Shown here: positions 14,600 through 64,000 of the stretch, in pieces
Position numbering within the stretch: position 1 is the first letter of the stretch
Layout: each line of letters starts with the position of its first letter
NCBI GenBank assembly: GCA_039636775.1
Contig: CP143429.1
Span: forward strand, 2,232,001-2,296,000
DNA from: Micrococcaceae bacterium Sec5.8
GTDB lineage: Bacteria; Actinomycetota; Actinomycetes; Actinomycetales; Micrococcaceae
Reading direction: 5' to 3'
Length of the DNA stretch: 64,000 nt
Translations under genes and position numbers: made by a program
Notes under the pieces: model-generated
Databases searched by the model: none
Seen by the model: only the letters and a program-made list of their open reading frames with translations
What the model was told of the DNA's origin: nothing

Positions 14600-15387
14600 G
14601 TCAGGATCTGCTCGGCGCGGCCAAAGGGACCCTGAAGGTCATGGAGCACCGTGGAGGTCAGGCCGATGCCGTCCGTGCCGAACGTGACCTCGTTGTCCAG
14701 TCCCAGCCACTCACCTTCAGGCCGCCGGTACATATGGATCTGCAGGTCCAGGTTGGGGAAGGCGTAGCTGCCCTTGCCCGGGGGAACGCGGGCAGCAATC
14801 CCGTTGGCAGTATCCACCAGGCCGATCAGCCGGGCGAGGTCGCTGCTGTCCTTTTTGTCGGTGAGCGGGTGTTGGGTGCGGAGCCAGACGGTACCTGATC
14901 CGGCCCGGTGCCCGTCGGCAATCCGCATCTGCAGCGATGCGATGTAGCCGCCCGGCCAGACGGTGGCGGCATCGTACGGTGCGCAGTCCTCCGGCGCGGG
15001 GATCCTGGCATCTTCGAAGGCCGCGATCGCCGAGGTGTCGGACGTGATCATCCGCCAGGCAGTGGCGCGGATCGCGGTACGGCCGCCGGCGGTCAGCTCG
15101 GCCTGCAGCAGTTCAATGGTCCGGCCTGGCCGAAGCGTGGTGGTCACCACCTCGAACTCACCGCCGGGAATCAGGCCAAGGATTTCATAGCTCAGCCGGG
15201 CCATCCGCATGTCCTCGCGCGGCTCGTGCCGGTCCAGGCAATCGGCCATGATGCCGGAGGCGGGAGCCATGTGCTGTTCGTGCACATTCCAGGCCCCCTG
15301 GGCGTGGATGGTGGAGCGGTACCGCCCGCCACCCAGGGCCTCGTAGTAGAAATCGCCCTCGGCAAGCACCGGTAGTTCAACAGACAA
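14584..15387 (-). CDS. Acyl-CoA thioesterase-like (double hotdog) protein
   Basis: About 267 aa with the two-hotdog layout of TesB-like thioesterase-family proteins: an N-terminal half around AWNVHEQHMAPASGIMADCL and RMARLSYEILGLIPGGEFEV, and a C-terminal half with PNLDLQIHMYRRPEGEWLGLD. Probably hydrolyses acyl-CoA; chain preference unknown. The start is taken as TTG at 15387 with AAAGG upstream, which gives an N-terminus SVELPVLAEGDFYYEALG; an ATG at 15426 is the alternative. The last codons lie inside a perfect palindrome. Confidence 0.82.
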   Translation of the reverse strand: MSVELPVLAEGDFYYEALGGGRYRSTIHAQGAWNVHEQHMAPASGIMADCLDRHEPREDMRMARLSYEILGLIPGGEFEVVTTTLRPGRTIELLQAELTAGGRTAIRATAWRMITSDTSAIAAFEDARIPAPEDCAPYDAATVWPGGYIASLQMRIADGHRAGSGTVWLRTQHPLTDKKDSSDLARLIGLVDTANGIAARVPPGKGSYAFPNLDLQIHMYRRPEGEWLGLDNEVTFGTDGIGLTSTVLHDLQGPFGRAEQILTLRKS

Positions 15388-15524
15388 GGTGGAACCTTTC
15401 GTGTGGCTGGTAATCCCAGAACACACTATCGCCTGTCTGCCGGTGCCGTGGCGCGCGCAGAGCGCCGGGCGCTGGAGGTCTCAATGTACCAGCGCGCGTG
15501 TCACTAACCTCCCGGTCAGGACAT

Positions 15525-15809
15525 CTAGGCTTCTACGCGCACACCCCGCCAGAAGGCCACATGGTCTTTGACCTGCCGGGCGCCGGGCTTCGGGTCCCCG
15601 TAGTACCACGCGGCATCCTGGTTCTTCTGGCCGTCGACCACCAGGCTGTAATAGCTGGCCGTGCCTTTCCAGGGGCAAACGGTGCTGTAGTTGCTGTCTT
15701 CCAGGTATTCGGACTTCACGGCGGTCAGCGGGAAGTAGTGGTTTCCCTCCACCATGACCGTGTTGTCACTCTCTGCGATGACCGCGTCGTTCCAGATCGC
15801 CTTTGCCAT
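15525..15809 (-). CDS. DUF427 domain protein
   Basis: A 94-aa protein with the DUF427 pattern: MAKAIWNDAVIAESDNT, then EGNHYFP, a Cys in TVCPWKGTASYYSL, and AAWYYGDPKP near the end. These small beta-rich proteins are common in actinobacteria and have no settled function. The ATG at 15809 sits behind a GGAGAC site; the longer upstream frame has no ribosome-binding site. Confidence 0.93.
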   Translation of the reverse strand: MAKAIWNDAVIAESDNTVMVEGNHYFPLTAVKSEYLEDSNYSTVCPWKGTASYYSLVVDGQKNQDAAWYYGDPKPGARQVKDHVAFWRGVRVEA

Positions 15810-16007
15810 GATGGGGTCTCCTGCTCGTAGCCGTGAACTGCTCTGACCGGGACGTTCCACTGTCCGCCCGACACTCGCTCAACGACCGGCGCTACGGATT
15901 GATTCCGTCCGCACGCAGGATCGTTCCACCGAAAATCTGCCCCGGTCCGCTGGACTGGGTAGACTCGAAAGGAGATTTCCGGAACTATCCACCGAAGAGG
16001 TGCTCCC

Positions 16008-16715
16008 CTGATTCGAGTCATCAGCTACAACCTGCGTAAGCACCATGCGATCGGTGAGCTGGTTGATCTGGCCCGCACTTTTGAGATCGATGCCCTGTGC
16101 CTCCAGGAATGCGATACCAACGACCTCCCGGACACCATCGGTGACCTGCACTTGGCGGACTCCACCAAGGGCAACCGGCTGGGCCTGGCAATTTATTACC
16201 GCAGGGACCGGTTCAAGGCCTACGAAACCAAAGCTTTTGCCCTCAAGAAGTCGCTGCATGACCGCGTCCTGTCGCCCGCCCACGAACGGCTCATCGGCAC
16301 CCGGATGGTCGACAACGAAACGGACCACGACCTCGTCCTCGCCTCTTTCCACGCGGCTCCCCTCACGGCGTCGAACTCGCTGCGCCGGAACCAGATCCAC
16401 GCGGCGCACGCGGAATTGCTCAGCATGGGCGGCGGCCTCATGTCGCTGATGGTGGGGGACTTTAATTACCCGTTCTTCACGAAGTACCTCACAGAGGAAA
16501 TGAAGGGCGCCGGCTACGACCTGACCCTCAGCGACCGCCGCACTTATACGCGCTACAAGGTCTTTAAGGGCCACTTTGATTTCGCCACTTCACAGGGCCT
16601 TAACATCGAAAGCGTGGAAACACTCCCCCACGGGGCCTCCGACCATCTCCCCATCCTCATCTCGGCGGAGTACGGCCAGGACGCCCCCGACAGTGCCGCG
16701 TCACCAGCGGCATAG
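16008..16715 (+). CDS. Endonuclease/exonuclease/phosphatase family protein with a probable CTG start
   Basis: EEP-family hydrolase, about 235 aa. Active-site pieces occur in order: Asn in ISYNLRKH (residue about 8), Glu in LCLQECD, Asp/Asn in VGDFNYP and the terminal SDHLP. The frame opens after a stop at 15960 and contains no ATG, GTG or TTG before codon 49, yet the first catalytic residues lie upstream of that. A CTG at 16008, with GAAGAGG seven bases before it, is therefore the best start. Substrate unknown; it could cleave DNA, phosphoinositides or another phosphodiester. Confidence 0.87.
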
Positions 16716-16831
16716 TCCGGGATTACCGACCCGGACCGACGCAGCGCGGGCTGTCCTCGCGCCGGGGCATCCGCCCGGGAAAGCCACGGCATGAACCTCT
16801 GGGTCCGACGCCTGACCGGTCCGGCCACCCC

Positions 16832-17170
16832 ATGAACATCGCAAAGTCGGTATTGCTTTTTCTCCTGGCCGCCGCGGCCGAAATCGGCGGTGCCTGGCTG
16901 GTGTGGCAGGCGATCCGCGAGGGCCGCGAGTGGTGGTGGGCCGGTCTGGGCGTCGTCGCGCTGGGGATCTACGGGTTCATTGCAACCCTGCAGCCCGACG
17001 CCAACTTCGGGCGGATTCTCGCAGCCTACGGCGGAGTCTTCGTTGCGGGGTCCCTGGCCTGGGGCATGGTCTTTGACGGATTCCGCCCGGACCGCTGGGA
17101 CGTGGTTGGCTCCATCATTTGCCTTGTTGGCGTTTCCATCATCATGTTCGCCCCCCGCACTGCCGGCTAA
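16832..17170 (+). CDS. YnfA/UPF0060 family membrane protein
   Basis: A 112-aa protein with four membrane helices and the family landmarks [18 protein letters not shown] in helix 1 and [15 protein letters not shown] in helix 3, followed by [15 protein letters not shown]. It resembles small multidrug resistance transporters; family function is not established. Its stop codon lies in the first copy of a 17-bp tandem repeat. Confidence 0.93.
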
Positions 17171-17206
17171 AGCGCACTGCCGGCTAAAGCGCACTGCCGG
17201 CTAAAG
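17156..17206. repeat. 17-bp tandem repeat over the YnfA stop codon
   Basis: The unit TGCCGGCTAAAGCGCAC (17161-17177) is repeated exactly at 17178-17194 and again for 12 bases at 17195-17206. The repeat contains the last codons and the stop, so the gene end is present three times. Confidence 0.85.
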
Positions 17207-17242
17207 GGGGGACGGGCCGGGGTGCAGCCGATCTCCGGCATC

Positions 17243-17278
17243 GGCGGGGTCGCCTGACGTCAGGAAGGCGCCCCCGCC
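17243..17278. terminator. Hairpin between convergent YnfA and DoxX-like genes
   Basis: GGCGGGG at 17243-17249 pairs with CCCCGCC at 17272-17278; a 12-bp palindrome (17253-17264) lies in the loop and overlaps the end of the minus-strand gene. Likely bidirectional terminator. Confidence 0.5.
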
Positions 17279-17691
17279 GAACGTTTGACGGCACCCTTCC
17301 GGTCCAGGATGAGTGCGCCGGCGATGCCCAGCATCCAGACATCCTTGGCCAGGACCGTGCCTTGCTGGCTGGGCCGGATTCCGTCCGCCAAGGTCATTCC
17401 CGGTGTCTTCAAATATATGGTGAACAGCGACCCCGAGAAGACCGCGAGCCCTGCCCCGGCGAGGCGGCTGGGGACGAACGGCGCAAGAAGAGCGGCCCCC
17501 AGGGACAGTTCGGCATAGCTGAGCATCTTTCCAAACAGCTCCGGTTTCATGCGGCTGGCTGATGGATAAACCCTTGCCGCCATGGCTTGCAAACCGGCAG
17601 CACCCTCTGCGTCCAGGCGGCGCTTGTTCAGACCTGAATTCACAATGAACGCCCCGGTGGTCAAGCGCAGGGGGAGGTGACTGAGTCTCAT
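17260..17691 (-). CDS. DoxX-like small membrane protein
   Basis: About 143 aa with three or four predicted membrane segments: LRLTTGAFIVNSGLNK near the N-terminus, SLGAALLAPF, AGLAVFSGSLFTIYL, and DVWMLGIAGALIL near the C-terminus. Shape and the first helix suggest the DoxX superfamily, but the match is not strong. The ATG at 17691 with AAAGGG six bases upstream is preferred to an upstream TTG. Role unknown. Confidence 0.7.
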   Translation of the reverse strand: MRLSHLPLRLTTGAFIVNSGLNKRRLDAEGAAGLQAMAARVYPSASRMKPELFGKMLSYAELSLGAALLAPFVPSRLAGAGLAVFSGSLFTIYLKTPGMTLADGIRPSQQGTVLAKDVWMLGIAGALILDRKGAVKRSAGAPS

Positions 17692-17839
17692 GGGGAACCC
17701 TTTCAAGTGTTGGTTCTTCGATACAAAAAGCCTAAGTTCACCGGAGGGCCGCCGCCAGAGCGCCGGGCACCCGTTTAGTTCAGACGGCCGGGCCGCCGCT
17801 AAGATCGACGCCGCCGCTGGCAGGCACTACGCTCGGCAA

Positions 17840-49981: not shown

Positions 49982-50379
49982 CTTGTTCCCCTCGGGTCCA
50001 CACCGTAGAGAGTCTGCGGTGACCACGGTTCACGCTACCGTTCCGCCCTTGCCCGGGGAAGCCCGGGCGCGGCAAAGCCAACCGGCAGCCAAGCGATTCA
50101 GGACGGCGTCACCGGCTCTCGCTCGCCCGCTGGACTGGGCACTTCCCTTGAAACCTTCACCACCAACACCCCCGGACGCGCTAACTTTTCGGTTAGGCCG
50201 ACGTTTGAGCCGGCGTCTAGGCCGTAAGACCACGTCGCGCTGAGGTGCCCCCGGGATTCGCGCGGGGTGCCCGCCCAAAGGAGGGATGCAGGACGATTCG
50301 CCGAGTTCAGTCCTGGATCTGCGGTAGGCCGGTGTACCGCGCCGACAGCAAAGAGGCCCCGCACCCCGAATGGTGCAAG
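49982..50379. other. Gene-free region upstream of the hsdR fossil
   Basis: Besides the promoter region of the minus-strand SDR gene, I see no supportable gene in this 398-bp stretch. A frame from 50245 runs into the hsdR fossil, but its first 45 codons resemble nothing I recognise. Confidence 0.5.
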
Positions 50380-50658
50380 GTCATTGCGGAGCTGGTGGAG
50401 CTCGCGCGGGAGATTGCTTTGGACGGCAACTGCGGCGCGGGCTTCACTCCGCCGCTGCACGCCGACGAACTGGCCTTCGACGACGCTGTGGCTTCGAATG
50501 CATCAGCCGTGGAGGTCCCTGGCAAAGGCGTACTGCCTGACATTGCCCGCGAGTCGGTGTCGGTGATGCGCCGCAGCGTCCGGACTGACTGGACTGTCCG
50601 CGATGACGTCCGCGCCAGGCTCCGGACCTCGATCGAGCAGCTCCTCGTGCGCTTCGGG
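50380..50658 (+). pseudogene. Isolated C-terminal fragment of an hsdR (type I restriction) gene
   Basis: Codons from VIAELVELAREIAL to IEQLLVRFG match, with roughly 75% identity by eye, the stretch VIAELVELAREVAL to IKRLLVRFG near the end of the intact HsdR encoded at 58063-61269. Shared blocks include FTPPL-x-x-DELAF-x-DAVASN, DIARE, VMRR-x-VRTDWTVRDDVRA. Nothing of the first about 950 HsdR residues is present, and downstream of G138 of the frame the similarity ends. This is a fossil of another hsdR, 8 kb upstream of the intact one. Confidence 0.88.
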
Positions 50659-50796
50659 CCAGGTCCCCTCTCCCCACGGATAGGCAAGATGGTCCTATTC
50701 TGATTTCCGAAGGGCAAGCACCGCGCCCATCGGTAAAACTGGGTTGGGCAGAAGGGGGCTGTTTCCACGGTCGAAATATTCCCAGTGCCTGTGCCA

Positions 50797-50829
50797 TCAA
50801 AAAGCCCTGCACCCCCAGGGGTGCAGGGC
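50797..50829 (-). terminator. Intrinsic terminator of the DUF898-type gene
   Basis: Read on the minus strand: a GC-rich stem (50804-50815 with 50818-50829; the innermost pairs must open for the loop) followed directly by five T. It starts 10 bases after the stop at 50839. One of the few hairpins here with a true U-tract. Confidence 0.85.
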
Positions 50830-50838
50830 CGTTACTGA

Positions 50839-51237
50839 CTAAGCGAAGACGGTCTTTTCGACCTTCCACTGCATCAGTCGCGGGTAGACCCAGAAGGTGT
50901 AGATGCCCAGCGTGATGATGCTCAGGAGCGCCCATTTGATCCACAGTCCGAAGATGCCCCACCCGGTGCCGACGAAGAGGAGCTGCCGGCCGTGAAGATA
51001 GGTGTTCTTGGCCCGCCATCGCTCCACGAGGACAAGGGCGAACGGGTAGCAGATTCCAATGGTGCAGATCGTAATCAGCACGCCGAGAATCTGGGTGCCG
51101 AACCAGGATGCGGCCCCGCCACGGAACTGATAGATCTGGGCCACAGGGACGGCCCCGGCGCCGCTGGCCACTATGGTTCCGGCGTCTGCGGCGGGCATCT
51201 GCCCAGATGGCGACACGTGCTCTTTGTTGATGCTCAA
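50839..51237 (-). CDS. DUF898-like membrane protein
   Basis: About 132 aa with two or three membrane segments (about 50-72 and 95-118). YQFRGGAASWFGTQILGVLIT, GICYPFALVLVERW and GIYTFWVYPRLMQW are the repeated motifs of DUF898 (YjgN-like) proteins. A TTG at 51237 with a GGGGG site 6 bases upstream is the most likely start; an ATG at 51198 is the alternative. Function unknown; possibly an envelope protein. Confidence 0.8.
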   Translation of the reverse strand: MSINKEHVSPSGQMPAADAGTIVASGAGAVPVAQIYQFRGGAASWFGTQILGVLITICTIGICYPFALVLVERWRAKNTYLHGRQLLFVGTGWGIFGLWIKWALLSIITLGIYTFWVYPRLMQWKVEKTVFA

Positions 51238-51330
51238 GGAATCCCCCAATTGATAACGCGAAAGTGAACAGTTGAACAGTAAGGGTCGAGAGGGAGCCGG
51301 GCGCCCCCCGGACACGGCTCCTCAGTCGCA

Positions 51331-51993
51331 CTACCCCGGGATCTGGATCCGTGCGGCTTCCTGCATCAGCGGGGTGGAGATCATCACGGTCGAAGCACCG
51401 GCCGCGGTGTCGAAGGCAATGAACCCCCGGGTCTTGTCACCCGGCAGAACGTCGCCGGAGCCAAGCTGGTTGTCCGCAAAGAGGTTCAGATCGGCTTTTC
51501 GCCCGTTGGAGTCCTTGGCCGAGAAGTAGAACGGGTTGGAGCTGGTTTTGCCCGTCTCCGTTTCCCACAGGACGTCCAGGAGCAGGTAGCTTCCACTCTT
51601 GGGTGCCGCCGCGAAGGCAGTAGTCGTCACAGCGTCCGTGCGGACGGCAGAGACAATCGTGATCTTCGCGACGTTGCCGTTGCCCATCTTGACGCTGAAC
51701 GGAGCGCCGACGGCGGGTCCGGCAGGCGCCGCCGGTGGAGCAACCGGGGCAGCCGGCGTTGCGGCCGGCGCAGCAGCTGCCGAAGAAGCAGGTGCCTCTG
51801 CCGCAGGAGCTGAGGTCGCGGCCGCCGGCGAGGCATCGCTGGCCTGCTTGGAGCCCCCGGAACACGAGCCCAGGGCCATGCCCAGCACCAGGACTCCGGC
51901 CGGGATAAGGAAACGCTTCTTTTTGAAGAACGGCCGCGGCTGAGGCGCTGCAAGCGCAGTGGTCAAGGGCTGTTCCGAAAGTTCGTGGGACAT
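51331..51993 (-). CDS. DUF4352-like membrane-anchored or lipoprotein
   Basis: A 220-aa protein: short cytoplasmic N-terminus, a membrane helix (about 27-43) ending in a lipobox-like LGSC, an Ala/Pro-rich linker (about 50-98) and a beta-sandwich domain (about 100-220) of DUF4352/telomeric-repeat-factor-like type (KITIVSAVRT, YLLLDVLWE, FYFSAKDSNGRKADL). Probably exposed on the outer face of the membrane. GGAAAGG precedes the ATG at 51993. Confidence 0.78.
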   Translation of the reverse strand: MSHELSEQPLTTALAAPQPRPFFKKKRFLIPAGVLVLGMALGSCSGGSKQASDASPAAATSAPAAEAPASSAAAAPAATPAAPVAPPAAPAGPAVGAPFSVKMGNGNVAKITIVSAVRTDAVTTTAFAAAPKSGSYLLLDVLWETETGKTSSNPFYFSAKDSNGRKADLNLFADNQLGSGDVLPGDKTRGFIAFDTAAGASTVMISTPLMQEAARIQIPG

Positions 51994-52038
51994 GTGGTGC
52001 CTTTCCAAGGTGAATGAATGATGCGAGGCGTGGAACTG

Positions 52039-52671
52039 TTACTGCTTTTCCCACTTGCCGCAGCGGCTGGACTTGAAGTCCTGCCCGCCGGAGAGCGCCA
52101 CTGAGGGCCGGCCGCCGCCGGGGAGATCGTTGTCAATAATGGTGCTGCCGTTGCTTCCGGTCGCGTAGATGCCCCAGTAGCAGGAGGATTCGACGTCGGC
52201 AGTGGCCCGGTAGGTGCCGGCCTCAAGGTCCTTGCCGACCGTCCAGGTGCCGTCGGCGATGGTGTTGGCCGCCTTGGTCTTCTCGGCGCCGGTCACCGCC
52301 TCTTCGCGTTTTTTGACGGCCGCATCGGCGGTCTTGACGGCCGCATCTACCTTGCCAACCTCAGATTCCCTGGCCGTGAGCTTCGCTTCGCGGGCAGCAT
52401 TGCCGTTCTGAAGGGTGTCGTACTTCGACTTCACCGACTGGTAGTTGGACTGAGCCGAGTCGCGCTCAGACTTCGCAGCGGCTTCCTCCCCCGCCAGCGC
52501 CACGTAGGCGTCGCTGGACCTCGGGTCAGGCAGCGTCGTGCCGAGCACCGTTCCACCGGCCAGGAGCGCGATGGCGGCGACAGCCAGCAGGGCCCGCTTC
52601 TTGCGCGCCGGCTCTAACTTCTCCAGCAACGGCGTCTCGTCCGTTCCGTGGCCCGTGACGGAGTTCAACAT
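52039..52671 (-). CDS. Membrane-anchored coiled-coil protein of unknown function
   Basis: A 210-aa protein: basic cytoplasmic start, one membrane helix (about 27-45), a coiled coil (about 58-125, Ala/Lys/Glu-rich with VKTADAAVKKREEAV) and a C-terminal beta domain (about 135-210). That domain contains GTWTVGKDLEAGTYRATA and Cys residues (CYWGIY, SRCGKW), a pattern seen in actinobacterial secreted proteins. It is 45 bases upstream of the DUF4352 gene on the same strand, so the two are probably co-transcribed. Confidence 0.75.
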   Translation of the reverse strand: MLNSVTGHGTDETPLLEKLEPARKKRALLAVAAIALLAGGTVLGTTLPDPRSSDAYVALAGEEAAAKSERDSAQSNYQSVKSKYDTLQNGNAAREAKLTARESEVGKVDAAVKTADAAVKKREEAVTGAEKTKAANTIADGTWTVGKDLEAGTYRATADVESSCYWGIYATGSNGSTIIDNDLPGGGRPSVALSGGQDFKSSRCGKWEKQ

Positions 52672-52822
52672 GATCTCGTCCTCTCTTTGCTGTAGCTACT
52701 GAGCGGCGGCGGGATACCGGTCCCCCAATGCGTGGTTCCCCGCCGCCGTCGCAGCATCGGAGGATTCCCTCGGCGCTGCAGAACCGAAGCTACGGGGGCC
52801 CTGCACCAGCACGACAAATAGA

Positions 52823-52846
52823 CACTGATAACCCCCCTTATCAGTG
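52823..52846. promoter_or_regulatory. Inverted repeat upstream of the restriction-modification operon
   Basis: CACTGATAA and TTATCAGTG (9-bp perfect arms) are separated by six C residues. It lies 60 bases upstream of the first operon gene and has no adjacent T-run, so it is more likely an operator than a terminator. The HTH-bearing first gene product is a candidate ligand. Confidence 0.6.
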
Positions 52847-52906
52847 CTTCAGCAGGAATGTCACCACATCCCGTTAGGCTTGGGGCGACGTCGTAAGGAG
52901 ACGCAC

Positions 52907-54970
52907 ATGACCAAAGCAGAAGCCCTGCGTATGACCCTTTCCGACGTCGCCGCACTGGCGCAGGTCCAGCGGCCCGTCGTCTCCATGTGGCGCAAACGCA
53001 GTGCCGGGTCAGCTCACCCGTTTCCCGAGCCCGGCGCGCTGGATAGCGGCCGTGAACTGTTCGACGCCGATCAGGTCGCCGGCTGGCTGGATGCAACCGG
53101 ACGCGGCAACAACCCTGATGCCGTGAACGACGCCGCCGCTTTCGCCCGCATACCCGTAACGGCGGCCGGCGGCGTCGAAGGGAACACCCTGGCTGCCCTC
53201 ACCGCCCTCCTGACTCTCAAGGCCATGACAGGAGCCGGGATTGGAACCCTGACCACAGCTGAGCTGCTGGACGCCGCGGACGAGTGCGACCCCGATGATG
53301 TGTTTCTTTACTCGGAACTGGAGGCCCAGGGCGCGTCGCTCGCTGCTACGGCAGCGTTCGCGGACCGGCTGGTGGACAGCGCCTACAACGCACCTGCCGC
53401 CTTTGAACAGCTTTTGGCCGCCCGGTTCCGGGCGGGGCTGCGGGAGCACGCGGATACGGCCCTTACGGAATCTGCCGTGGAGCTTATCGCCGCCGCGGCG
53501 GTCGAACTCTCCGCGGTGCTGGGCGGGAGTCCCGTCTTTGCCGACTCCACCCGCGGCGGCAGCGACCTCCTGATGGGCGTCGTGCACGCTTCCGGCGAGG
53601 GTGCCCCCGTCACCTTTCTGACAGCGGACGACGACGGCGGCGCCGGCCGGCTAGTGCGTCGCCGCCTGCGCGTCCATGGTGTGGACTCCGGACAGATCCT
53701 TGTCGAGACCAGCGGCGAATTCGCCATGCATGGAGCCGTGGTCCATGTGGCGCAGTACCCATCCCCCGGCCAACCAGGCATGGACGCCACCCAGATTCTT
53801 TCCGCGGTGGAACACCTTGTCCTCCAGATGGACGACCAGCAGCGGGCGGTCATCATTGCCCCGGCACGTGTTCTCTGCGATATTCCGCTGGCCGCCGGGG
53901 CCGCGGGCTTGCGTTCGGGGCTGCTGCGCACCGGCCGGGTACGTGCCATTGTCCGGCTGCCCCAGGGCCTACTGCGGTCCAAGCCCCGCGAAGCGCAGGC
54001 GCTGTGGGTGCTGGGACCGTCGTTCGCAAAAGTACCGATTGCGGAACGCTGGACCATGGCGGCGGACCTCAGCGCCTGTGCCCTCACCGACGACGTGAGG
54101 CAGGACCTGGTGAGCGACATGGTCGCCTCTATGGGTAACCGCGCCACCGTGCGCGCCCACTCCTTCAGGTTTGCCCGACTGGTCCAGACCCGTCTGCTGC
54201 TGGCCGCCCGGACATCCCTCGTGGCAGCTCATCACCCCGGGCCGGCTCCGAGTTCCGGCGGCGCGGAGGCTGTCCTTCGCGTCGAGGAACTGGTGCGTCT
54301 GGTCGGAGCCGGAGGACCGAAGCCATCAGCTGACATGGCCGTTCTCCCGGGAGGTCCAGCCACGAAGGCCCAGCCCGCTGCAGTCCAGGGACTTCTGGCC
54401 GCCGGCACCCTGAAATACATCAAGGGGAACCGGATTGTCGATGCGGACCTGGCGCCGGGCGGCACCACACGGGTCCTGGGGCCGGCCGAGCTGCTCCACC
54501 CGCACACCGCACCTACCCGGTACATCAGTTTGCTGAAGTTCGCCGCCAGCAACCCCGGGGGCAGGCTCACCGAGCCCGGCGACGTCGTGTTCTGCACCAG
54601 CCCGCGGCCGGCGGCCACGGTCGACGCTGACGGCGGCTCCGCCGTCGTGTTCCCCGCGAGGGTGCTGCGGATCGACGCAGGGGACCCCGGCGGGCTGCTG
54701 CCCGACGTCGTCGCCGCGGACATCAACGCACTGTCCGGCAGGGACAAGGTCTGGCGGCACTGGCAGCTGCGCCGCGTGCCGGACGCCCAGCGGAAGAAGC
54801 TTGCCGAAACGCTCGCCCGGCTGCAACACGGGCAGCATCTGGCCCGCGAACGCCTCAAACGGCTGGAGGAACTCGCTACCCTGATTACGGACGGCGTAGC
54901 GGGCGGAAGCCTCACCATGACAGACCCCAGCACTAAGCTCGCCGAACCACAGACCGAAGGAACCCAGTAA
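52907..54970 (+). CDS. HTH + degenerate N6-adenine methyltransferase + HsdS-like protein, first gene of the type I R-M operon
   Basis: A 687-aa protein. Residues about 10-62 look like a MerR/XRE-type HTH (LSDVAALAQVQRPVVSMWRK, then FDADQVAGWL). Residues about 140-420 keep the HsdM scaffold, but the SAM motif I is FADSTRGGSD (211-220) instead of D-P-x-x-G-x-G, and the catalytic N-P-P-F is replaced by AQYPSP (282-287); the later RAIVRLPQGLL matches HsdM. Residues about 480-680 resemble an HsdS half with GDVVFCTSPRP and a coiled coil (about 620-665). Its stop overlaps the hsdM ATG. It is probably a catalytically dead accessory or regulatory subunit. CGTAAGGAGA precedes the ATG. Confidence 0.8.
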   Translation: MTKAEALRMTLSDVAALAQVQRPVVSMWRKRSAGSAHPFPEPGALDSGRELFDADQVAGWLDATGRGNNPDAVNDAAAFARIPVTAAGGVEGNTLAALTALLTLKAMTGAGIGTLTTAELLDAADECDPDDVFLYSELEAQGASLAATAAFADRLVDSAYNAPAAFEQLLAARFRAGLREHADTALTESAVELIAAAAVELSAVLGGSPVFADSTRGGSDLLMGVVHASGEGAPVTFLTADDDGGAGRLVRRRLRVHGVDSGQILVETSGEFAMHGAVVHVAQYPSPGQPGMDATQILSAVEHLVLQMDDQQRAVIIAPARVLCDIPLAAGAAGLRSGLLRTGRVRAIVRLPQGLLRSKPREAQALWVLGPSFAKVPIAERWTMAADLSACALTDDVRQDLVSDMVASMGNRATVRAHSFRFARLVQTRLLLAARTSLVAAHHPGPAPSSGGAEAVLRVEELVRLVGAGGPKPSADMAVLPGGPATKAQPAAVQGLLAAGTLKYIKGNRIVDADLAPGGTTRVLGPAELLHPHTAPTRYISLLKFAASNPGGRLTEPGDVVFCTSPRPAATVDADGGSAVVFPARVLRIDAGDPGGLLPDVVAADINALSGRDKVWRHWQLRRVPDAQRKKLAETLARLQHGQHLARERLKRLEELATLITDGVAGGSLTMTDPSTKLAEPQTEGTQ

Positions 54971-56598
54971 TGCCCCCGAAATTAAAGGTGGACCTCGCCC
55001 CGTCCACCATGAAGGAACTCAAGGACACCCTCTGGAAGGCCGCGGACAAGCTGCGCGGCTCCATGGACGCCTCCCAGTACAAGGACGTCATCCTTGGCCT
55101 GGTGTTCCTGAAGTACGTCTCGGATGCCTTCGAGGAGCGGCGCACCCAGATCGTCACGGAGCTGGAAGCCGACGGCCTCAACGAGGACCAGATCGCCCAG
55201 CTGATCGACGACGTCGACGAATACACCGGCCGCGGCGTCTTCTGGGTCCCGGCCCGGGCCCGCTGGGACTACCTCGCGGAGAACGGCAAGGGCCTCGCCG
55301 CCGCCATGGGCGAAGCGCCGAAGAGCATCGGCCAGCTGATCGACGAGGCCATGGACCTCATCATGGGCGCCAACCCCACGCTGGCCGCCACGCTCCCCCG
55401 CATCTTCAACCGCGACAACGTGGACCAGCGCCGCCTCGGCGAGCTCCTGGACCTGCTGAACTCGGCCCGGTTCACCGGCCAGGGCGTCAGCAAGGCCCGC
55501 GACCTGCTCGGCGAGGTCTACGAGTACTTCCTGGAAAAGTTCGCCCGGGCCGAGGGCAAGCGCGGCGGCGAGTTCTACACCCCCGCAGGCGTGGTCCGGG
55601 TCCTCGTGGAGGTACTGGAACCCAACCGTGGGAGGGTTTACGATCCCTGCTGCGGCTCGGGTGGCATGTTTGTCCAGACCGAGAAGTTCCTGGAGCACCA
55701 CCAGAAGGAAGGCTCGGACATCTCGGTCTATGGCCAGGAGCTCAACGAGCGCACCTGGCGGATGGCCAAAATGAACCTCGCCATCCACGGCCTCAACGCC
55801 AACCTCGCCTCCCGCTGGGGCGATACCTTTGCCCGGGATCAGCACCCCGAGCTGACCGGCACCAACGGCGCGGACTTCATCATGGCCAACCCGCCCTTCA
55901 ACATCAAGGACTGGGCCCGCTCCGAATCCGATCCTCGTTGGAAGTACGGTGTCCCCCCGGCCGGCAACGCCAACTACGCCTGGATCCAGCACATCATCTC
56001 CAAGCTCGCTCCCGGCGGCAGCGCCGGCGTGGTCATGGCCAACGGCTCCATGTCCTCCAACTCCGGCGGCGAGGGTGAGATCCGCGCCCAGCTCGTCGAA
56101 GCAGACCTCGTCTCCTGCATGGTGGCGCTGCCCACCCAGCTCTTCCGTTCCACCGGAATTCCGGTGTGCACCTGGTTCTTCGCCAAGGACAAATCGGCAG
56201 GTTCGAAGGGCTCCGCCGACCGCACCGGCCAGGTACTGTTCATCGACGCCCGCAACTTGGGCTACATGGTGGACCGCGCCGAGCGCGCCCTGTCGGACGA
56301 GGACATCGCCAAGATCGCCGGCACCTACCACGCCTGGCGCGGCACGTCCTCCGCCGTTGAAGAAGATCTGACGTACGACGACGAGCCCGGCTTCTGCTAT
56401 TCGGCCACGCTTGCGGAGATCAAGGCCGCCGACTACGCACTGACGCCCGGACGGTACGTCGGGGCGGCGGACGTCGAGGACGACGGCGAGCCCATTGAGG
56501 AGAAGATCGCCCGGTTGTCGAAAGAGCTGTTCGAGCAGTTCGACGAGTCCGAGCGGCTGGCGGCTGTTGTGCGCGAGCAGTTGGGGAGGGTTTCGTGA
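54970..56598 (+). CDS. hsdM: Type I restriction-modification DNA methyltransferase (HsdM)
   Basis: A 542-aa N6-adenine methyltransferase. The N-terminal helical domain (about 10-150) begins LKDTLWKAADKLRGSMDASQYKD. SAM motif I is DPCCGSGGM (225-233), catalytic motif IV NPPF (307-310), and the C-terminal part ends with coiled-coil-like helices that contact HsdS. The ATG shares one base with the stop of the upstream gene, and the stop overlaps the GTG of hsdS by 4 bases, so three genes are translationally coupled. Confidence 0.97.
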   Translation: MPPKLKVDLAPSTMKELKDTLWKAADKLRGSMDASQYKDVILGLVFLKYVSDAFEERRTQIVTELEADGLNEDQIAQLIDDVDEYTGRGVFWVPARARWDYLAENGKGLAAAMGEAPKSIGQLIDEAMDLIMGANPTLAATLPRIFNRDNVDQRRLGELLDLLNSARFTGQGVSKARDLLGEVYEYFLEKFARAEGKRGGEFYTPAGVVRVLVEVLEPNRGRVYDPCCGSGGMFVQTEKFLEHHQKEGSDISVYGQELNERTWRMAKMNLAIHGLNANLASRWGDTFARDQHPELTGTNGADFIMANPPFNIKDWARSESDPRWKYGVPPAGNANYAWIQHIISKLAPGGSAGVVMANGSMSSNSGGEGEIRAQLVEADLVSCMVALPTQLFRSTGIPVCTWFFAKDKSAGSKGSADRTGQVLFIDARNLGYMVDRAERALSDEDIAKIAGTYHAWRGTSSAVEEDLTYDDEPGFCYSATLAEIKAADYALTPGRYVGAADVEDDGEPIEEKIARLSKELFEQFDESERLAAVVREQLGRVS

Positions 56599-57815
56599 GC
56601 GAGCGGCGTGTCACGACGCTTGGCGCCCTCTGCTCAGAAGGCGGCGGAGGGATACAGACTGGACCTTTTGGGAGCCAGCTTCACGCATCCGACTATGTAC
56701 TTTCGGGTGTACCGAGTGTGATGCCGCAAAATATTGGTGACAACGTCATCAGCCAGAGCGGCATCGCCCGAATCCAAGAGTCTGATGCTCTCCGACTGGC
56801 TAAATACCGTTTGAGAGACGGCGATATCGTCTACTCGCGTCGTGGTGACGTTGAGAAGCGCGCACTGGTTCGACGGGAGAATGACGGTTGGCTGTGCGGT
56901 ACCGGTTGTCTTCGAGTGAGGCTCGGGGACCAATCCCCCCACGATCCTGCTTTTCTTTCGTATCTCCTCGGAACGGAGGACTCTCGGGAATGGATAGTGC
57001 GCCACGCAGTCGGTGCCACCATGCCCAATCTCAATACGTCGATTCTCTCGGCTGTCCCCCTCACGGTGCCCGAACCTCGTGTGCAGCGGGCGATTGCGGA
57101 GGTGCTGGGCGCCCTCGACGATAAGATCGCCGCCAACACCAAGCTCGTTCAGACCTCCGCAGCCCTGACTCAAGCGATGTTCTCCTCGGCTGTCGCCACA
57201 TCCTCAGAGGAATCCGTTCTCTCGGAAATCACCGAACTTCTCAGCCGCGGCATTACGCCCAAGTATTCTGACGACAACGACGCAACCGTCATCCTGAACC
57301 AGAAGTGCGTCCGCGGGCAGCGTGTAGATCTGGACCCGGCTCGGCGGACACTTTCCGTCAAAGTCCGTGAAGACAAACTCCTGAAATTGGATGACGTCCT
57401 TGTGAACTCGACGGGACAAGGAACGCTCGGCCGGGTTGCACGATGGACTCACCATGAGAATGTCACGGTCGATTCGCACATCACCATCGTCAGGTTCGAC
57501 CGAAACAAAGTTGATCCTGTATGTGCGGGAGTGGGTCTCCTCGGCTTGCAGCAGACCATCATCGAAATGGGTGAAGGCAGCACTGGACAAACAGAACTGT
57601 CGCGAGTCGAACTCGGAAAACTTCGTATAAGGCTTCCGGATTTCGAAACTCAACGGGCCCTCGGCCGTCGGTTCGCTTCGATGGCGAATATGGAGCGAAT
57701 AAACCTTGAGGAGAACCGTCGCCTGGCAGCCACCCGTGATGCCCTTCTCCCCCAACTCATGTCCGGCAAGCTCCGGGTCCGGGAAGGAGAAACGCTGGTG
57801 GCAGCGGCGGTCTGA
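56595..57815 (+). CDS. hsdS: Type I restriction-modification specificity subunit (HsdS)
   Basis: A 406-aa subunit with two target-recognition domains (about 1-145 and 200-350), each followed by a conserved helical spacer (RAIAEVLGALDDKIAAN at about 176-192; RLAATRDALLPQLMSGKL near the end). It sets the DNA sequence recognised by HsdM and HsdR. Base composition is visibly lower in GC than hsdM, as usual for specificity genes that are exchanged between strains. The GTG start overlaps hsdM. Confidence 0.95.
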   Translation: MSERRVTTLGALCSEGGGGIQTGPFGSQLHASDYVLSGVPSVMPQNIGDNVISQSGIARIQESDALRLAKYRLRDGDIVYSRRGDVEKRALVRRENDGWLCGTGCLRVRLGDQSPHDPAFLSYLLGTEDSREWIVRHAVGATMPNLNTSILSAVPLTVPEPRVQRAIAEVLGALDDKIAANTKLVQTSAALTQAMFSSAVATSSEESVLSEITELLSRGITPKYSDDNDATVILNQKCVRGQRVDLDPARRTLSVKVREDKLLKLDDVLVNSTGQGTLGRVARWTHHENVTVDSHITIVRFDRNKVDPVCAGVGLLGLQQTIIEMGEGSTGQTELSRVELGKLRIRLPDFETQRALGRRFASMANMERINLEENRRLAATRDALLPQLMSGKLRVREGETLVAAAV

Positions 57816-57884
57816 GGGTCCGCTCACCGTCGGTGCCCGCCGATACATTCGTAGTGAAATGACCGCTCAGAGGAGATGGCCCGG

Positions 57885-57971
57885 TCAAATCGCTGCCCGA
57901 AGAATTCGCTTCAACGCTGCCCCAGTATCACCGACCTCGAAGCCGAGCTTTCAGACGATGCCTCGAAGTGA
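57885..57971 (+). pseudogene. C-terminal fossil of a DUF1016/YhcG nuclease gene
   Basis: Between hsdS and hsdR the DNA can be read as PEEFASTLP and, after a +1 shift in a run of four C at 57920-57923, PSITDLEAELSDDASK-stop. This matches the end of the intact DUF1016 protein encoded at 37852-38910 (PKEFAATLPSISELEAELSQGT). About 25 codons survive. DUF1016 genes commonly sit between hsdS and hsdR, so this looks like the scar of a deleted one. The remaining 57972-58062 is the hsdR leader. Confidence 0.82.
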
Positions 57972-58062
57972 TCCCTCGCGGAATTACTTAGCGTGGCTAA
58001 TGGCAGGGATCAACCGGCCGGTTGGATAGGCTGATCAATAAATCGACTTTGGGGGAACAACC

Positions 58063-61000
58063 GTGAGCACCGCACCCGTCAAGATACCGGCCATCGGCTT
58101 TTCCGAGGCTGACTGGGAAGGCGTCGCACTGGACCGGCTGGCCGAGCCGCTCGGCTGGCAGCCCAAAGCCGGCCAGGACATCGCGCCCGGCACGGACCAG
58201 CGCCATTCCTGGGACGAGCTGCTCATCCGGCCGCGCCTGCTCGCTGCCCTGCAGCGGTTCAACCCGGCAGTCCCGGTGCAGTACCTCCAGCAGGCACTCG
58301 CGGAGATCGCCTCACCTAAATCCAACGACGCCCTCGCCGAAAGCCACCGCATCCACGGCTACCTGGTGGACGGCTTCCGGCTCAGCTATATCGACTCCGA
58401 CGGCACTGAGGCCAACCCCACCATCCGGCTGCTCAGCACCGACCCGGACGAGAACGACTGGCTCGCCGTCAACCAGGTCACCCTTCTCCAGGGCGACTAC
58501 AAACGCCGCTTCGACCTCGTGCTCTACTGCAACGGAATGCCCGTCAGCATCATCGAGCTGAAAAAAGCCGGCAGCGCCTCCGCCGACGTCGCCTCCGCGC
58601 ACGCCCAGCTGCAGACCTACCTCCGCGAATTCCCCATGGCGTTCCGCTTCTGTGTCTTCACCCTCGCCTCCGACGGCATCGAGGCCAAGTACGGGACGCC
58701 GTTCACGCCCCTGAACCATTTCTCCCCCTGGAACGTGGACGACGACGGCGTGCCCGTGGCGCCCGGTTACATGGAAGACGGCGAGGCCGTCACCGCCCTG
58801 GAAACCGCCCTGCACGGGCTGTACAACCAGACCCGCTTCCTGCAGGTGCTGCAGAGTTTCACGGCGTTTGACGGCGGCCCGGAGGGACTGACCAAGCGGA
58901 TCGCCAAGCCGCACCAGTACTTCGCCGTGACCAAGGCCGTGGGCAGCACCGTCCAGGCCGTGGAGAGCAACGGCAAGGCCGGCGTCGTCTGGCACACTCA
59001 GGGCTCGGGCAAGTCGATGGAGATGGAGCTCTACACCAACTTGGTGGCCCGGCACCCCCGGCTGAAGAACCCCACCGTCGTCGTCATCACGGACCGCAAC
59101 GAACTCGACGGGCAGCTGTTCGAGGGTTTCGCCCGCAGCCTGCTGCTGGCCGAATCCCCCAAGCAGATCAAGAAGCGCTCCGAGCTGCGCGAGGAACTCT
59201 CCAACCGCACCACCGGTGGGATCTACTTCACCACACTGCAGAAGTTCGGCCGCAGCAAGGCCGAGAAGGACGCCGGCACCGACCACCCGCTGCTGTCCGA
59301 CCGGCGGAACATCATCGTGGTGGTGGACGAGGCGCACCGTTCCCATTACGACGACCTCGACGGCTACGCCCGGCACCTGCGCGATGCCCTCCCGCACGCC
59401 ACGCTGATCGCCTTCACCGGCACCCCGATCTCGTTCGACGACCGCAACACCCAGGACGTCTTCGGCGACTACATCGACGTCTACGACCTCTCCCGCGCCG
59501 TGGAGGACGGCGCCACCGTGCCGGTCTACTTCGAGCCGCGGCTGATCAAGGTGGGCTTGGCCTCCGAGGTCACCGAGGAAATCCTGGACCGGGCCGCCGA
59601 TGAGGCGACCTTGGGCCTGGACGACACCGAGCGGGCGCGGATCGAGGCGAGCGTCGCCGTCGTGAACGCCGTCTATGGTGCGCCGCAGCGGATCGCGGCG
59701 CTGGCCGCAGATCTGGTGGCGCACTGGGAGAACCGCAGCGCCCGGATGCACAAGTTCATCGAGGCGCCGGGCAAGGCCATGATCGTCGGCGGCACGCGGG
59801 AAATCTGCGCGAAGCTGTACACGGCGATCGTGGAACTGCGGCCGGACTGGCACTCCGACGACCTGGGCAAGGGCAGGATCAAGGTGGTCTACTCGGGGAA
59901 CGCAACCGATGTTCCCCCGGTCTCCGACCATGTGCGCCGCGATTCCGCGAATGCGCTGATCAAGGAACGCCTCAAGGACGTGGACGACGAGCTGGAGCTG
60001 GTGATCGTCAAGGACATGATGCTCACCGGCTACGACTCCCCGCCCCTGCACACCCTGTACCTGGACCGGCCGCTGAAGGGCGCGCTGCTCATGCAGACCC
60101 TGGCCCGGGTGAACCGCACCTTCCGCGGCAAGGAGGACGGGCTGCTGGTGGCGTACGCCCCACTGGCGGAGAACTTGGCGAAGGCGCTGAGCGAGTACAC
60201 GAAGGACGACCGGGCGAACAAGCCGGTGGGGAAGAACATTGATGAGGCGGTCGCACTGGTCCGTGACCGAGTGCAGGCTTGCCGTGTCTTGCTGGCTGGC
60301 TACGACTGGAAGGCCGTCTGGCACAAGGGCGGACCGAGGGCCTTCCTCAATGCGACTTGGGGCTCGGTGAACTACCTTCGAGATGTTCACACTCCCGGAA
60401 ATTCACCCGCAGACGGCGAAGAAACGCTGTCTGCACGCTATCGCAGCACTTCCGGTCAGCTTGCACGGGCATGGGCGCTTTGTTCGGGCAAGGCCGATCT
60501 CGAACCACTCCGTCCGGAAATTGCCGTCTATGAAGAGATTCGCGTGTGGATGGCCAAGATGGATGCGCAGGAGCGGCAGGCAAACGGCCAGCCGGTCCCC
60601 GCACAAATTCAGCGGCTTCTTGGAGAGTTGATCGCTGGCGCGACCGCTTCGGGCGAGGTGCTGGACATCTATGAGGCCGCCGGCATGCCAAAGCCCTCTC
60701 TGGATGATCTGACGCCGGAGTTCATTGCCAAGACCCAGCAGGCGCGGAACCCGCAGCTGGCCATCGAGGCACTGCGGAAGCTCATCGCTGACGAGACCGT
60801 TACGGCCACACGGAACAACGTGATCCGGCAGCGGGCATTCTCCGAACGCATTACCGAGCTGATGAAGAAGTACACCAACCAGCAGCTGACCTCGGCCGAG
60901 GTCATCGCCGAGCTGGTGGAGCTGGCGCGGGAGGTGGCGTTGGAGAGTAACCGGGGTTCCCGTTTTACTCCCCCGCTGAACTCCGACGAGCTCGCCTTCT

Positions 61001-61269
61001 ACGACGCTGTGGCTTCAAATGAATCGGCCGTGGAGGTCCAGGGAGAAGGCATCCTGGCGGACATCGCCCGGGAGCTGGTGGCCGTGATGCGCCGCGATGT
61101 CCGTACCGACTGGACGGTCCGCGACGACGTTCGGGCCAAGCTCCGCTCCTCGATCAAACGGCTCCTGGTCCGCTTCGGATACCCGCCGGACAATCAGCCC
61201 CAAGCCATCAAGCTGGTCATGGAGCAGATGGAGTCCATGGCGCCAAGGTTTGCTGAGGCACGGGGCTAA
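58063..61269 (+). CDS. hsdR: Type I restriction endonuclease subunit (HsdR)
   Basis: A 1068-aa restriction subunit. The PD-(D/E)xK nuclease is at about 140-170 (Asp151 in RFDLVLY, Glu165 and Lys167 in IIELKK). The SF2 translocase has Walker A TQGSGKS (312-318), DEAH (422-425), TGTPI near 455 and later helicase motifs; the C-terminal helical region docks onto HsdM. The start is a GTG at 58063 with GGGGGAAC upstream. About 60280-60660 looks less GC-rich than the rest, suggesting a recombined segment. Its last 100 residues have a fossil paralogue at 50380-50658. Confidence 0.97.
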   Translation: MSTAPVKIPAIGFSEADWEGVALDRLAEPLGWQPKAGQDIAPGTDQRHSWDELLIRPRLLAALQRFNPAVPVQYLQQALAEIASPKSNDALAESHRIHGYLVDGFRLSYIDSDGTEANPTIRLLSTDPDENDWLAVNQVTLLQGDYKRRFDLVLYCNGMPVSIIELKKAGSASADVASAHAQLQTYLREFPMAFRFCVFTLASDGIEAKYGTPFTPLNHFSPWNVDDDGVPVAPGYMEDGEAVTALETALHGLYNQTRFLQVLQSFTAFDGGPEGLTKRIAKPHQYFAVTKAVGSTVQAVESNGKAGVVWHTQGSGKSMEMELYTNLVARHPRLKNPTVVVITDRNELDGQLFEGFARSLLLAESPKQIKKRSELREELSNRTTGGIYFTTLQKFGRSKAEKDAGTDHPLLSDRRNIIVVVDEAHRSHYDDLDGYARHLRDALPHATLIAFTGTPISFDDRNTQDVFGDYIDVYDLSRAVEDGATVPVYFEPRLIKVGLASEVTEEILDRAADEATLGLDDTERARIEASVAVVNAVYGAPQRIAALAADLVAHWENRSARMHKFIEAPGKAMIVGGTREICAKLYTAIVELRPDWHSDDLGKGRIKVVYSGNATDVPPVSDHVRRDSANALIKERLKDVDDELELVIVKDMMLTGYDSPPLHTLYLDRPLKGALLMQTLARVNRTFRGKEDGLLVAYAPLAENLAKALSEYTKDDRANKPVGKNIDEAVALVRDRVQACRVLLAGYDWKAVWHKGGPRAFLNATWGSVNYLRDVHTPGNSPADGEETLSARYRSTSGQLARAWALCSGKADLEPLRPEIAVYEEIRVWMAKMDAQERQANGQPVPAQIQRLLGELIAGATASGEVLDIYEAAGMPKPSLDDLTPEFIAKTQQARNPQLAIEALRKLIADETVTATRNNVIRQRAFSERITELMKKYTNQQLTSAEVIAELVELAREVALESNRGSRFTPPLNSDELAFYDAVASNESAVEVQGEGILADIARELVAVMRRDVRTDWTVRDDVRAKLRSSIKRLLVRFGYPPDNQPQAIKLVMEQMESMAPRFAEARG

Positions 61270-61313
61270 ATTGCCAACCCTCCAGAATTTGTCCTACTCA
61301 ATAGGAGATTAAT

Positions 61314-63023
61314 TTGCAATTGTCACATGTCAAAATATCAAGATACCGAAGCATCTCTCGTGATGCTGCATTTAAAATCGAAAACATGACTGTTTTAGTC
61401 GGCCCCAACAATCAGGGAAAGTCGAATCTCCTGCATGGCATCAGCCTGGGCATGAAAGTCATCGATCAACTCGCCAATGGTGTGAATCCACCCAAGACGA
61501 GCCCTCGTCGCAGTCCGGTACCATTCTTCTATCCGCGGAGAGCGGAGCTTGTAAATGACTTCGATTGGGAACGCGATTATCCTCTCAACCTCACAACGCG
61601 AAGCTACACATCCATTCGCTTCGAATTTAGGCTTGACGCAAAGGAGGTAACTGATTTCCAGCGCATCATCGGTTCACGCGTTAACGGGACACTTCCGATC
61701 GAGATAAAGTTTTACCCCAATAAACCTCCATCTTTATCCATACCTAAGCCCGGCAAGGGAAGCAAGAGTTATGCAGCGAAGTCGCCCGAAATAGCCGACT
61801 TTATAAAAAAGCGCATAAAGTTCATTTTCGTTCCTGCAGTTCGCACTGTCGATCAAGCTATGCAAGTGATCAACCAACTAGCGTCGGAACGCATGAGCTC
61901 CCTTGAGGCGGATCTTGAATATCAGAGTTTACTGCGAAAAATTGAAGATAAGCGGAGTGACCATTTTCGAGCAATTGAATCTAGTGTCTCTACCCGACTT
62001 GGCAGTTACCTGCCGGGATTCGACGCGATAGAAATCGTAGGCGAACCGGTTAGTGATTTTGCCGCCGTACGCGACATCCTCATCGATGATGGAGCACGAA
62101 CATCCCTTCTGCAGAAGGGTGACGGTGTGAAGAGCATAGTTTCGCTGGCGCTTATGCACGACGTCGCAGAACACGCCAACAAGGATCGGCAGGTGATTCT
62201 GGCTGTCGAGGAGCCTGAGGCGCACCTGCATTCCGATGCAATTCACGAGATCCGAAAGGTGCTAGCTCAAGTAGCGTCAAAGCAGCAAGTGATTCTCACC
62301 ACTCACAGCCCACTGCTCCTTAATCGCTCTCATGTAGCAAGCAACATCCTTGTCCAAGGGAATCGTGCGCGCCCCACAAAGAGGCTGGAGGAGTTGCGCG
62401 ACTGCCTCGGAGTTCGGCCTGGGGATAATCTGTCGTCTGCGACTGTAAGCATCTTGGTCGAGGGGCAAACCGATGAGCGGTTTCTCCGGAAGATCCTCTC
62501 GGAAAAGTCATCTCGCATTGAGGGAGCCTTAGTTGACGGCTCCATCAAGATCCGGCCTTCGGGTGGTGGCAGTGGATTAACGGCTGCCGCAAAACATTTG
62601 CTCATAGAGCCCACGACAATGTTTGCGTTGATCGACAATGACAACGACGGTAAAAACACCCTCAAGAAGTTGGGTGACGACACGTTGGTGCCCGTGGAGA
62701 ACGTCTTCCTGGTTTCGCCGGGCGGACTCTTCAATAAAGAGCTTGAAGATTTTTATTCCGAGGAACTTCATCGCAAAGTTCTAAACCAAATGTTTGCCGC
62801 GGACGTCTCATCGTTTGAACCGTGGGACGATGAAAAGAAATGGAGTAATCAGGTCAAACCGTTTCTAAGGACGATCGGAAAGCCTGACGATACGTACACG
62901 GTCGATACTGTCAAGATTCGTCTTGTGGAAGAAATAGAACGAGTCGGGACCCAGGGACTGAATCCGAAGGCTGATCCAATTCTCGATAGCTTAGTGGCCC
63001 GGCTCGAAAAAGTCGTGATTTAG
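61314..63023 (+). CDS. OLD-family ATP-dependent nuclease (AAA ATPase with TOPRIM domain)
   Basis: A 569-aa protein. The ABC-like ATPase (about 1-350) has Walker A GPNNQGKS (30-37), Walker B EEPEAHLH (299-306) and TTHSP (329-333). The C-terminal TOPRIM nuclease (about 378-500) has Glu383 in LVEGQTDE and the Asp pair in LIDNDND (441-443). Such OLD nucleases act in phage defence alone or with a helicase (Gabija). No helicase partner follows. A TTG start at 61314 has AGGAG 7 bases upstream. The gene is clearly lower in GC and richer in AT-ending codons than its neighbours, so it is a recent arrival, 44 bases behind hsdR. Confidence 0.9.
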   Translation: MQLSHVKISRYRSISRDAAFKIENMTVLVGPNNQGKSNLLHGISLGMKVIDQLANGVNPPKTSPRRSPVPFFYPRRAELVNDFDWERDYPLNLTTRSYTSIRFEFRLDAKEVTDFQRIIGSRVNGTLPIEIKFYPNKPPSLSIPKPGKGSKSYAAKSPEIADFIKKRIKFIFVPAVRTVDQAMQVINQLASERMSSLEADLEYQSLLRKIEDKRSDHFRAIESSVSTRLGSYLPGFDAIEIVGEPVSDFAAVRDILIDDGARTSLLQKGDGVKSIVSLALMHDVAEHANKDRQVILAVEEPEAHLHSDAIHEIRKVLAQVASKQQVILTTHSPLLLNRSHVASNILVQGNRARPTKRLEELRDCLGVRPGDNLSSATVSILVEGQTDERFLRKILSEKSSRIEGALVDGSIKIRPSGGGSGLTAAAKHLLIEPTTMFALIDNDNDGKNTLKKLGDDTLVPVENVFLVSPGGLFNKELEDFYSEELHRKVLNQMFAADVSSFEPWDDEKKWSNQVKPFLRTIGKPDDTYTVDTVKIRLVEEIERVGTQGLNPKADPILDSLVARLEKVVI

Positions 63024-63135
63024 GCGCCCACAGATAGTCAGAGATGCGAGGTCATTTTGGTTTTAAGTCTTCGCTACAACACTGCGCGGGCGCATCCAGC
63101 AAGCTCGCTCGCTAAGTAGCGAACGAAGAACAGAA

Positions 63136-63166
63136 CGGCCCCGCACATAATTGCTGTACGGGGCCG
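63136..63166. terminator. Terminator between the OLD nuclease and nrdF genes
   Basis: A 12-bp stem with one mismatch (63136-63147 with 63155-63166) and a 7-base loop lies between convergent genes, about 29 bases past the nrdF stop. Confidence 0.72.
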
Positions 63167-63194
63167 CTCCGGACCTTTCGATTCACAAGAATAA

Positions 63195-64000
<806 letters not shown>

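Follow-up and report, generated by a model that had tools for sequence, protein, structure and literature searches.

Why should a type I restriction-modification operon begin with a gene for what looks like a disabled relative of its own methyltransferase? In the 64,000-nucleotide stretch of Micrococcaceae bacterium Sec5.8 DNA analysed here (the window), hsdM, hsdS and hsdR are preceded by such an open reading frame, for which reg is our working name (Table 1). As read from the sequence, reg is very probably a dedicated autoregulatory transcription factor of the reg-hsdM-hsdS-hsdR operon, probably an activator, with a dead HsdM/HsdS-like body.

Table 1. Features of the reg locus (window coordinates)
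Feature	Position	Strand	Remarks
DUF4352 protein gene	51331-52008	-	relatives in 28/77 reg loci (best 80 of 114 stretches)
Membrane-anchored protein gene	52039-52671	-	relatives in 47/77 reg loci (best 80 of 114 stretches)
Operator CTGATAACCCCCCTTATCAG	52825..52844	.	core GATAA-N6-TTATC at 52827-52842
Predicted -10 box TAGGCT	52875..52880	+	starts 32 nt after operator core
Likely RBS of reg, AAGGAG	52895..52900	+	sequence
reg: HTH, pseudo-HsdM, TRD-like/coiled-coil tail, 687 aa	52907..54970	+	
MerR-like winged helix, residues 7-70	52925..53116	+	recognition helix VQRPVVSMWRKR, residues 20-31
Pseudo-HsdM fold, residues 69-444	53111..54238	+	
Degenerate SAM motif I SPVFADSTRGGSDLL, residues 208-222	53528..53572	+	
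QYPS in place of lost motif IV (NPPF), residues 283-286	53753..53764	+	
TRD-like domain, residues 491-615	54377..54751	+	structure model; borders by eye
Long helix / coiled coil, residues 626-665	54782..54901	+	structure model
hsdM: N6_Mtase, DPCCGSGG and NPPF intact	54970..56598	+	Pfam
hsdS	56595..57815	+	Pfam
hsdR	58063..61269	+	Pfam

The reg protein and its degenerate body

The earlier note described the reg product as a dead methyltransferase of HsdM-like fold that had gained an HTH and an HsdS-like half-specificity tail with a coiled coil, and this description holds up. Comparison of the predicted structure with known structures finds the HsdM fold, and the structure model suggests the HsdS-like tail. 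The catalytic motifs are gone: motif IV in the form [ND]PP[FYWL] occurs in none of the 77 open reading frames of reg relatives (loci from the best 80 of 114 stretches), and SAM motif I reads GGSD in the window, a GxG-like spelling being found in 6 of 65 aligned rows. The HTH is a MerR-like winged helix, in which V20, R22, V24, V25, S26, W28, R29 and R31 are invariant across the 65 rows. HTH_3 matched one of 34 reg members (E 0.049), and a sequence search of the PDB with the HTH profile returned two weak ribosomal-protein matches and nothing else. Pfam and NCBIfam gave no match to the window protein up to E 1, Pfam Methylase_S included, and PF02384 (N6_Mtase) found nothing above cut-off in this protein or six relatives (best E 0.4).

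The TRD-like domain is spanned loosely, at high rmsd, by 7eew_A and other methyltransferase chains in whole-model superpositions. Could it be a second recognition module, as had also been proposed? This is now less plausible, as the tail (residues 491-615) is conserved, with a mean pairwise identity of 41.8% vs 38.0% for the pseudo-methyltransferase part (65 rows), whereas HsdS varies: at loci L032-L058 it is 25-61% identical to that of the window and HsdM 82-94% (L045 lacks both).

Low dN/dS ratios indicate that the dead body is maintained. Against six relatives the overall values for reg are 0.18-0.28, which rules out a decaying pseudogene; by part they are 0.13-0.21 in the pseudo-methyltransferase, 0.21-0.39 in the TRD-like domain and 0.38-0.65 in the linker, and for hsdM they are 0.08-0.13 (four pairs). 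Relatives of reg are called 'hypothetical protein' in the databases in all five plasmid matches and in most other named matches; a few carry the names 'helix-turn-helix transcriptional regulator' or 'DNA-binding protein'. Among the titles and abstract openings listed by literature searches, mostly of papers outside subscription journals, none describes the family.

Linkage to hsdM and absence together with hsdR

The last base of reg lies within the hsdM start codon, so the one-base overlap reported earlier is confirmed. The coupling extends well beyond the window. The gene is found in 44 of 198 genus genomes, and hsdM is directly downstream in all 30 genus loci inspected (L001, L003-L031). A scan of genome contigs gave 114 stretches, and the best 80, taken for analysis, represent 77 different loci spread over many families of actinobacteria; in 71 of these 77, hsdM starts no more than 400 nt past the end of reg. 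The remaining six comprise three at a contig edge (L075, L086, L088), two with a truncated reg (L045, L068) and an orphan reg in Mumia with no hsdM (L076). Such a neighbourhood survey, as the earlier note had suggested, thus speaks against random association with type I loci. A chance neighbour of a core gene is likewise ruled out, since reg is accessory and hsdM adjoins it in 71 of the 77 loci. Across the same 77 loci (best 80 of 114 stretches) identity of reg falls to 29% while that of the adjoining HsdM is 64-94%. A phylum-wide profile search, with two candidates scored per genome, found reg in at least 6 of 396 genomes. A Streptomyces plasmid stretch (L146) has the same gene order, a one-base operator variant and TAATGT at 33.

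How regular is the association when viewed from hsdM? Of 16 loci that encode a nearly full-length HsdM of at least 62% identity, reg lies upstream in 12, is present as a fragment in two and is absent from two; among less similar or partly matched HsdMs (L132-L144), reg accompanies 2 of 13. The reg label changes 7 times on a quick tree built from 50 HsdM rows, vs 13.2 in shuffles, and the tree suggests several losses of reg, including one within a five-member clade of family f6. The members of that HsdM clade (L148-L152) have neither reg nor an intact hsdR; hsdS stands before hsdM in L148 and behind it in L149-L152.

Ten genomes with hsdM and no intact reg, two of them with a fragment, contain no intact hsdR in the 13-20 kb around, and a full-length relative of the window hsdR is present in none of the ten genome-wide. 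Partial matches are fragments of 45-65% identity in G898 and matches of 29-38% in G844, G704 and G862; six genomes gave nothing. The check covered reg-less HsdMs other than L132, L136, L139, L141 and L143. The absences are partly non-independent, as a single clade holds five of the ten HsdMs and six of the ten genomes share one genus code. Among reg loci, hsdR is visible in the stretch at 62 of 77 (best 80 of 114 stretches). Ten of the other 15, that is, all except L075, L076, L086, L088 and L092, were searched genome-wide, and hsdR was full length in seven, in pieces in two and cut by a contig end in one. The joint absence of the two genes suggests that reg is required wherever restriction can take place, and that it is retained only alongside the nuclease subunit.

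A gene for an OLD/GajA-like AAA ATPase (61314-63023, plus strand; PADLOC Old, E 8e-34) begins 44 bp past hsdR and possibly belongs to the same operon. Upstream, two divergent genes (51331-52671, minus strand) border the intergenic region that carries the operator; relatives of the membrane-anchored protein are also encoded on two plasmid stretches, L146 (a weak match) and L147. A non-coding block with inverted repeats (52705-52795), situated between the operator and the divergent gene, is conserved in an alignment of 18 sequences that includes the window. An RNA leader element was considered and rejected, as Rfam has no match at E<=1 in 52400-53100, and no tRNA that might serve as an integration site is present in 50000-64000. 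A 3'-end remnant of hsdR at 50374-50697 (plus strand), which matches residues 945-1053 of the window hsdR at 70% identity, is perhaps the scar of another restriction-modification copy.

A palindrome and a predicted promoter at near-constant spacing

The intergenic region holds a motif that went unseen in the earlier note. The palindrome GATAA-N6-TTATC stands upstream of reg in 77 of 78 loci (the window and the 77 from the best 80 of 114 stretches; L106 is the sole miss), vs two occurrences elsewhere in these loci (1.52 Mb). When spacers of 0-15 bases were tried, six alone emerged, in 76 of 77 loci (best 80 of 114 stretches). Genus loci carry the operator in 28 of 29 cases, the exception (L020, genome G140) having a seven-base spacer. 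In the 3.87-Mb genome from which the window comes, the core is a single copy. Genus-wide, a match is present in 43 of 44 genomes with reg (the miss being G140) vs 41 of 154 without, so that the 16-mer alone is no proof of reg; the pattern read backwards, as a control, matches in 28 of 198 genus genomes. None of the sites in reg-less genus genomes has a G/C-only spacer, among the matches listed.

A further 22 reg loci, including a few near-copies of earlier ones and two short frames (L197, L200), show 15 exact operators, four one-base variants, two GTTAA forms and one without (L170). L160 has a second perfect operator past hsdR (15205-15220), with TAnnnT 35 nt on, upstream of a frame for an LmuB/mad3-like AAA ATPase (15270-17750); a small regulon is possible there.

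Does the palindrome belong to reg or to hsdM? The orphan reg of L076 keeps the operator in the absence of hsdM, and none of the ten stretches around an hsdM without intact reg has it; the operator therefore goes with reg. The two GTTAA loci are those of G780 and G754, whose reg proteins are 50% identical; in both, the recognition helix reads V-S-R-Q-A-V-S-M-W and the operator is GTTAA-N6-TTAAC, with TAnnnT at 36 and 26, outside 32-35. As the two share one genus code, the change is perhaps a single event, and no further GTTAA locus was found among relatives of G780 at family and order level (22 genomes) or in the family of G728 (35 genomes). In L195 the helix is R-Q-V-V (P to Q) and the operator is still GATAA, so that Q alone does not alter it.

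Proteins with a related HTH that are not reg (L179-L194) provide a control, the operator being found at 0 of 16 loci. N6_Mtase (PF02384) is matched at 82-126 bits by 14 of the 16 proteins; L193 is a short frame, and L179 is a true miss of the operator, as it has no N6_Mtase match and likeness to reg in three stretches. L180-L192 and L194 form a Streptomycetaceae family of HTH and N6_Mtase proteins of about 585-690 aa, with the helix VTRATVSNWRRRH or VGRAAVSNW, that stands outside the operator rule.

The distance from the operator to a candidate -10 box is nearly constant. TAnnnT begins 32 nt past the operator in 39 promoters, 33 nt in 18 and 34 nt in 13, which amounts to 70 of 75 promoters of sufficient length, none counted twice; any other single offset accounts for 0-3. 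The further loci have TAnnnT at 32-35 in 18 of 22, and in L175 the operator is present with no TAnnnT nearby. A profile of 74 non-redundant promoters was aligned on TAnnnT, so that the letters of the box are given. It has no conserved -35: the information content does not exceed 0.11 bit at -37 to -30, it reaches 0.32 bit at -29 to -25, and TTGACA-like hexamers number 16 vs a shuffled mean of 10.3 and maximum of 17, not clearly above shuffles. With TAnnnT read as the -10 box and the start site thus predicted, the operator is centred at about -53.

Mode of action and alternative readings

Among the four roles offered in the earlier note (regulatory subunit, anti-restriction safeguard, second recognition module, sensor of unmethylated DNA), a putative dedicated operator at the promoter favours regulation. 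How might reg act? Two copies would dimerize, probably through the C-terminal helices, and place their MerR-like winged helices on GATAA-N6-TTATC, about 53 bp upstream of the predicted start. Bound reg would then govern transcription of its own gene and of the hsd genes from the promoter they share, in a positive loop like that of the C proteins of type II systems. Activation is the likelier direction because of the fixed distance from operator to -10, the missing -35 and a centre near -53. The dead HsdM/HsdS-like body would be the dimerizing or sensing part, and free HsdM, HsdS, HsdR or DNA may feed back on the promoter through it.

Regulatory methyltransferases of the SsoII/Ecl18kI type are active cytosine enzymes of type II systems, and C proteins are small cI-like HTH proteins. 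Unlike the former, reg has a dead HsdM/S-like body and heads a type I operon; unlike the latter, it has 687 aa, a MerR-like HTH and a pseudo-enzyme body. Both groups, with HsdC and RptR, are nevertheless precedents, as far as the accessible text of the sources goes (PMC5282649, PMC12255303, PMC3874152, PMC12707154, PMC12839542). SsoII/Ecl18kI-type proteins share with reg an N-terminal HTH before a methyltransferase body and an operator at their own promoter; in the parts of the papers at hand that operator overlaps the promoter and mediates self-repression, whereas the reg operator would lie upstream of the predicted promoter (PMC3874152, PMC12707154). C proteins, HsdC included, are likewise described in the available portions as dedicated autogenous regulators, encoded by the first gene of the restriction-modification operon and with a conserved operator (PMC5282649, PMC12707154). 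RptR of Gammaproteobacteria, too, is encoded at the head of a type I defence operon, with protein and site conserved; according to the accessible text it is a 9-kDa four-helix repressor that binds 6-bp palindromes over the -10, and reg differs in size, fold and geometry (PMC12255303). Closer in composition are the actinobacterial HTH and N6_Mtase proteins (L113 and 14 of L179-L194), with the reg type of HTH before the methyltransferase domain. L113 matches the reg profile in both HTH and body. Unlike reg, these proteins score with PF02384 at 82-126 bits and have no GATAA operator; L113 keeps motif I (DPACGMGS), and its motif IV reads YPPT.

Could reg instead be a repressor on the same site, keeping the operon low until infection or entry into a new cell brings relief? 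We regard this as rather unlikely. HsdC of Mollicutes and RptR, the known regulators of type I loci, both repress, but in the accessible text their sites cover the -10 (PMC5282649, PMC12255303), whereas the reg operator ends 32-34 nt before TAnnnT; moreover, the reg promoters show no -35 of their own. Somewhat less probable still is that the main role of reg is that of a physical subunit, in which a dead M-S half joins HsdM/HsdS/HsdR as an assembly part or anti-restriction safeguard, with the HTH secondary. A complete HsdM fold with an S-like tail under purifying selection would fit this, as would the absence of reg where hsdR is missing, and PacII M1M2S (7vs4) is by its title a solved methyltransferase with two M subunits. 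However, the operator, the promoter geometry and the covariation of helix and operator would be left unexplained, and the orphan reg of L076 retains the operator without hsdM. A second, physical role beside regulation is possible, because DNA binding would require a much smaller body. It is very improbable that the palindrome serves a different host regulator or is recognized by the restriction-modification enzyme itself: host regulators commonly bind palindromes of this size, but this one is present in one copy in its own genome, follows reg and not hsdM, stays constant though HsdS varies, and differs where the reg helix differs. That reg is still a methyltransferase with an unusual active site is hardly credible, for the few GxG-like rows and a YPPF at the motif IV position of L160 are set against the loss of [ND]PP[FYWL] from all 77 (best 80 of 114 stretches) and of even the DPxxG remnant in distant rows, e.g. 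L104 and L107.

What would an autoregulatory reg sense with so large a body? We tentatively suggest, as one possible reading, a sensor of stoichiometry or DNA state, which would make transcription of the operon depend directly on the assembly state of the restriction complex. The pseudo-HsdM/HsdS body may compete with HsdM for HsdS or HsdR, or dock on unmodified DNA, and in some hosts its reach may include neighbouring defence genes, as with the operator before the AAA-ATPase gene in L160.

With reg as a transcription factor, a widespread actinobacterial family could be assigned a function, a predicted binding site and a rule for its promoters, and a type I methyltransferase body could become a transcription factor. 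Should the sensor reading also be true, a dead enzyme complex would be the thermostat of the living one.
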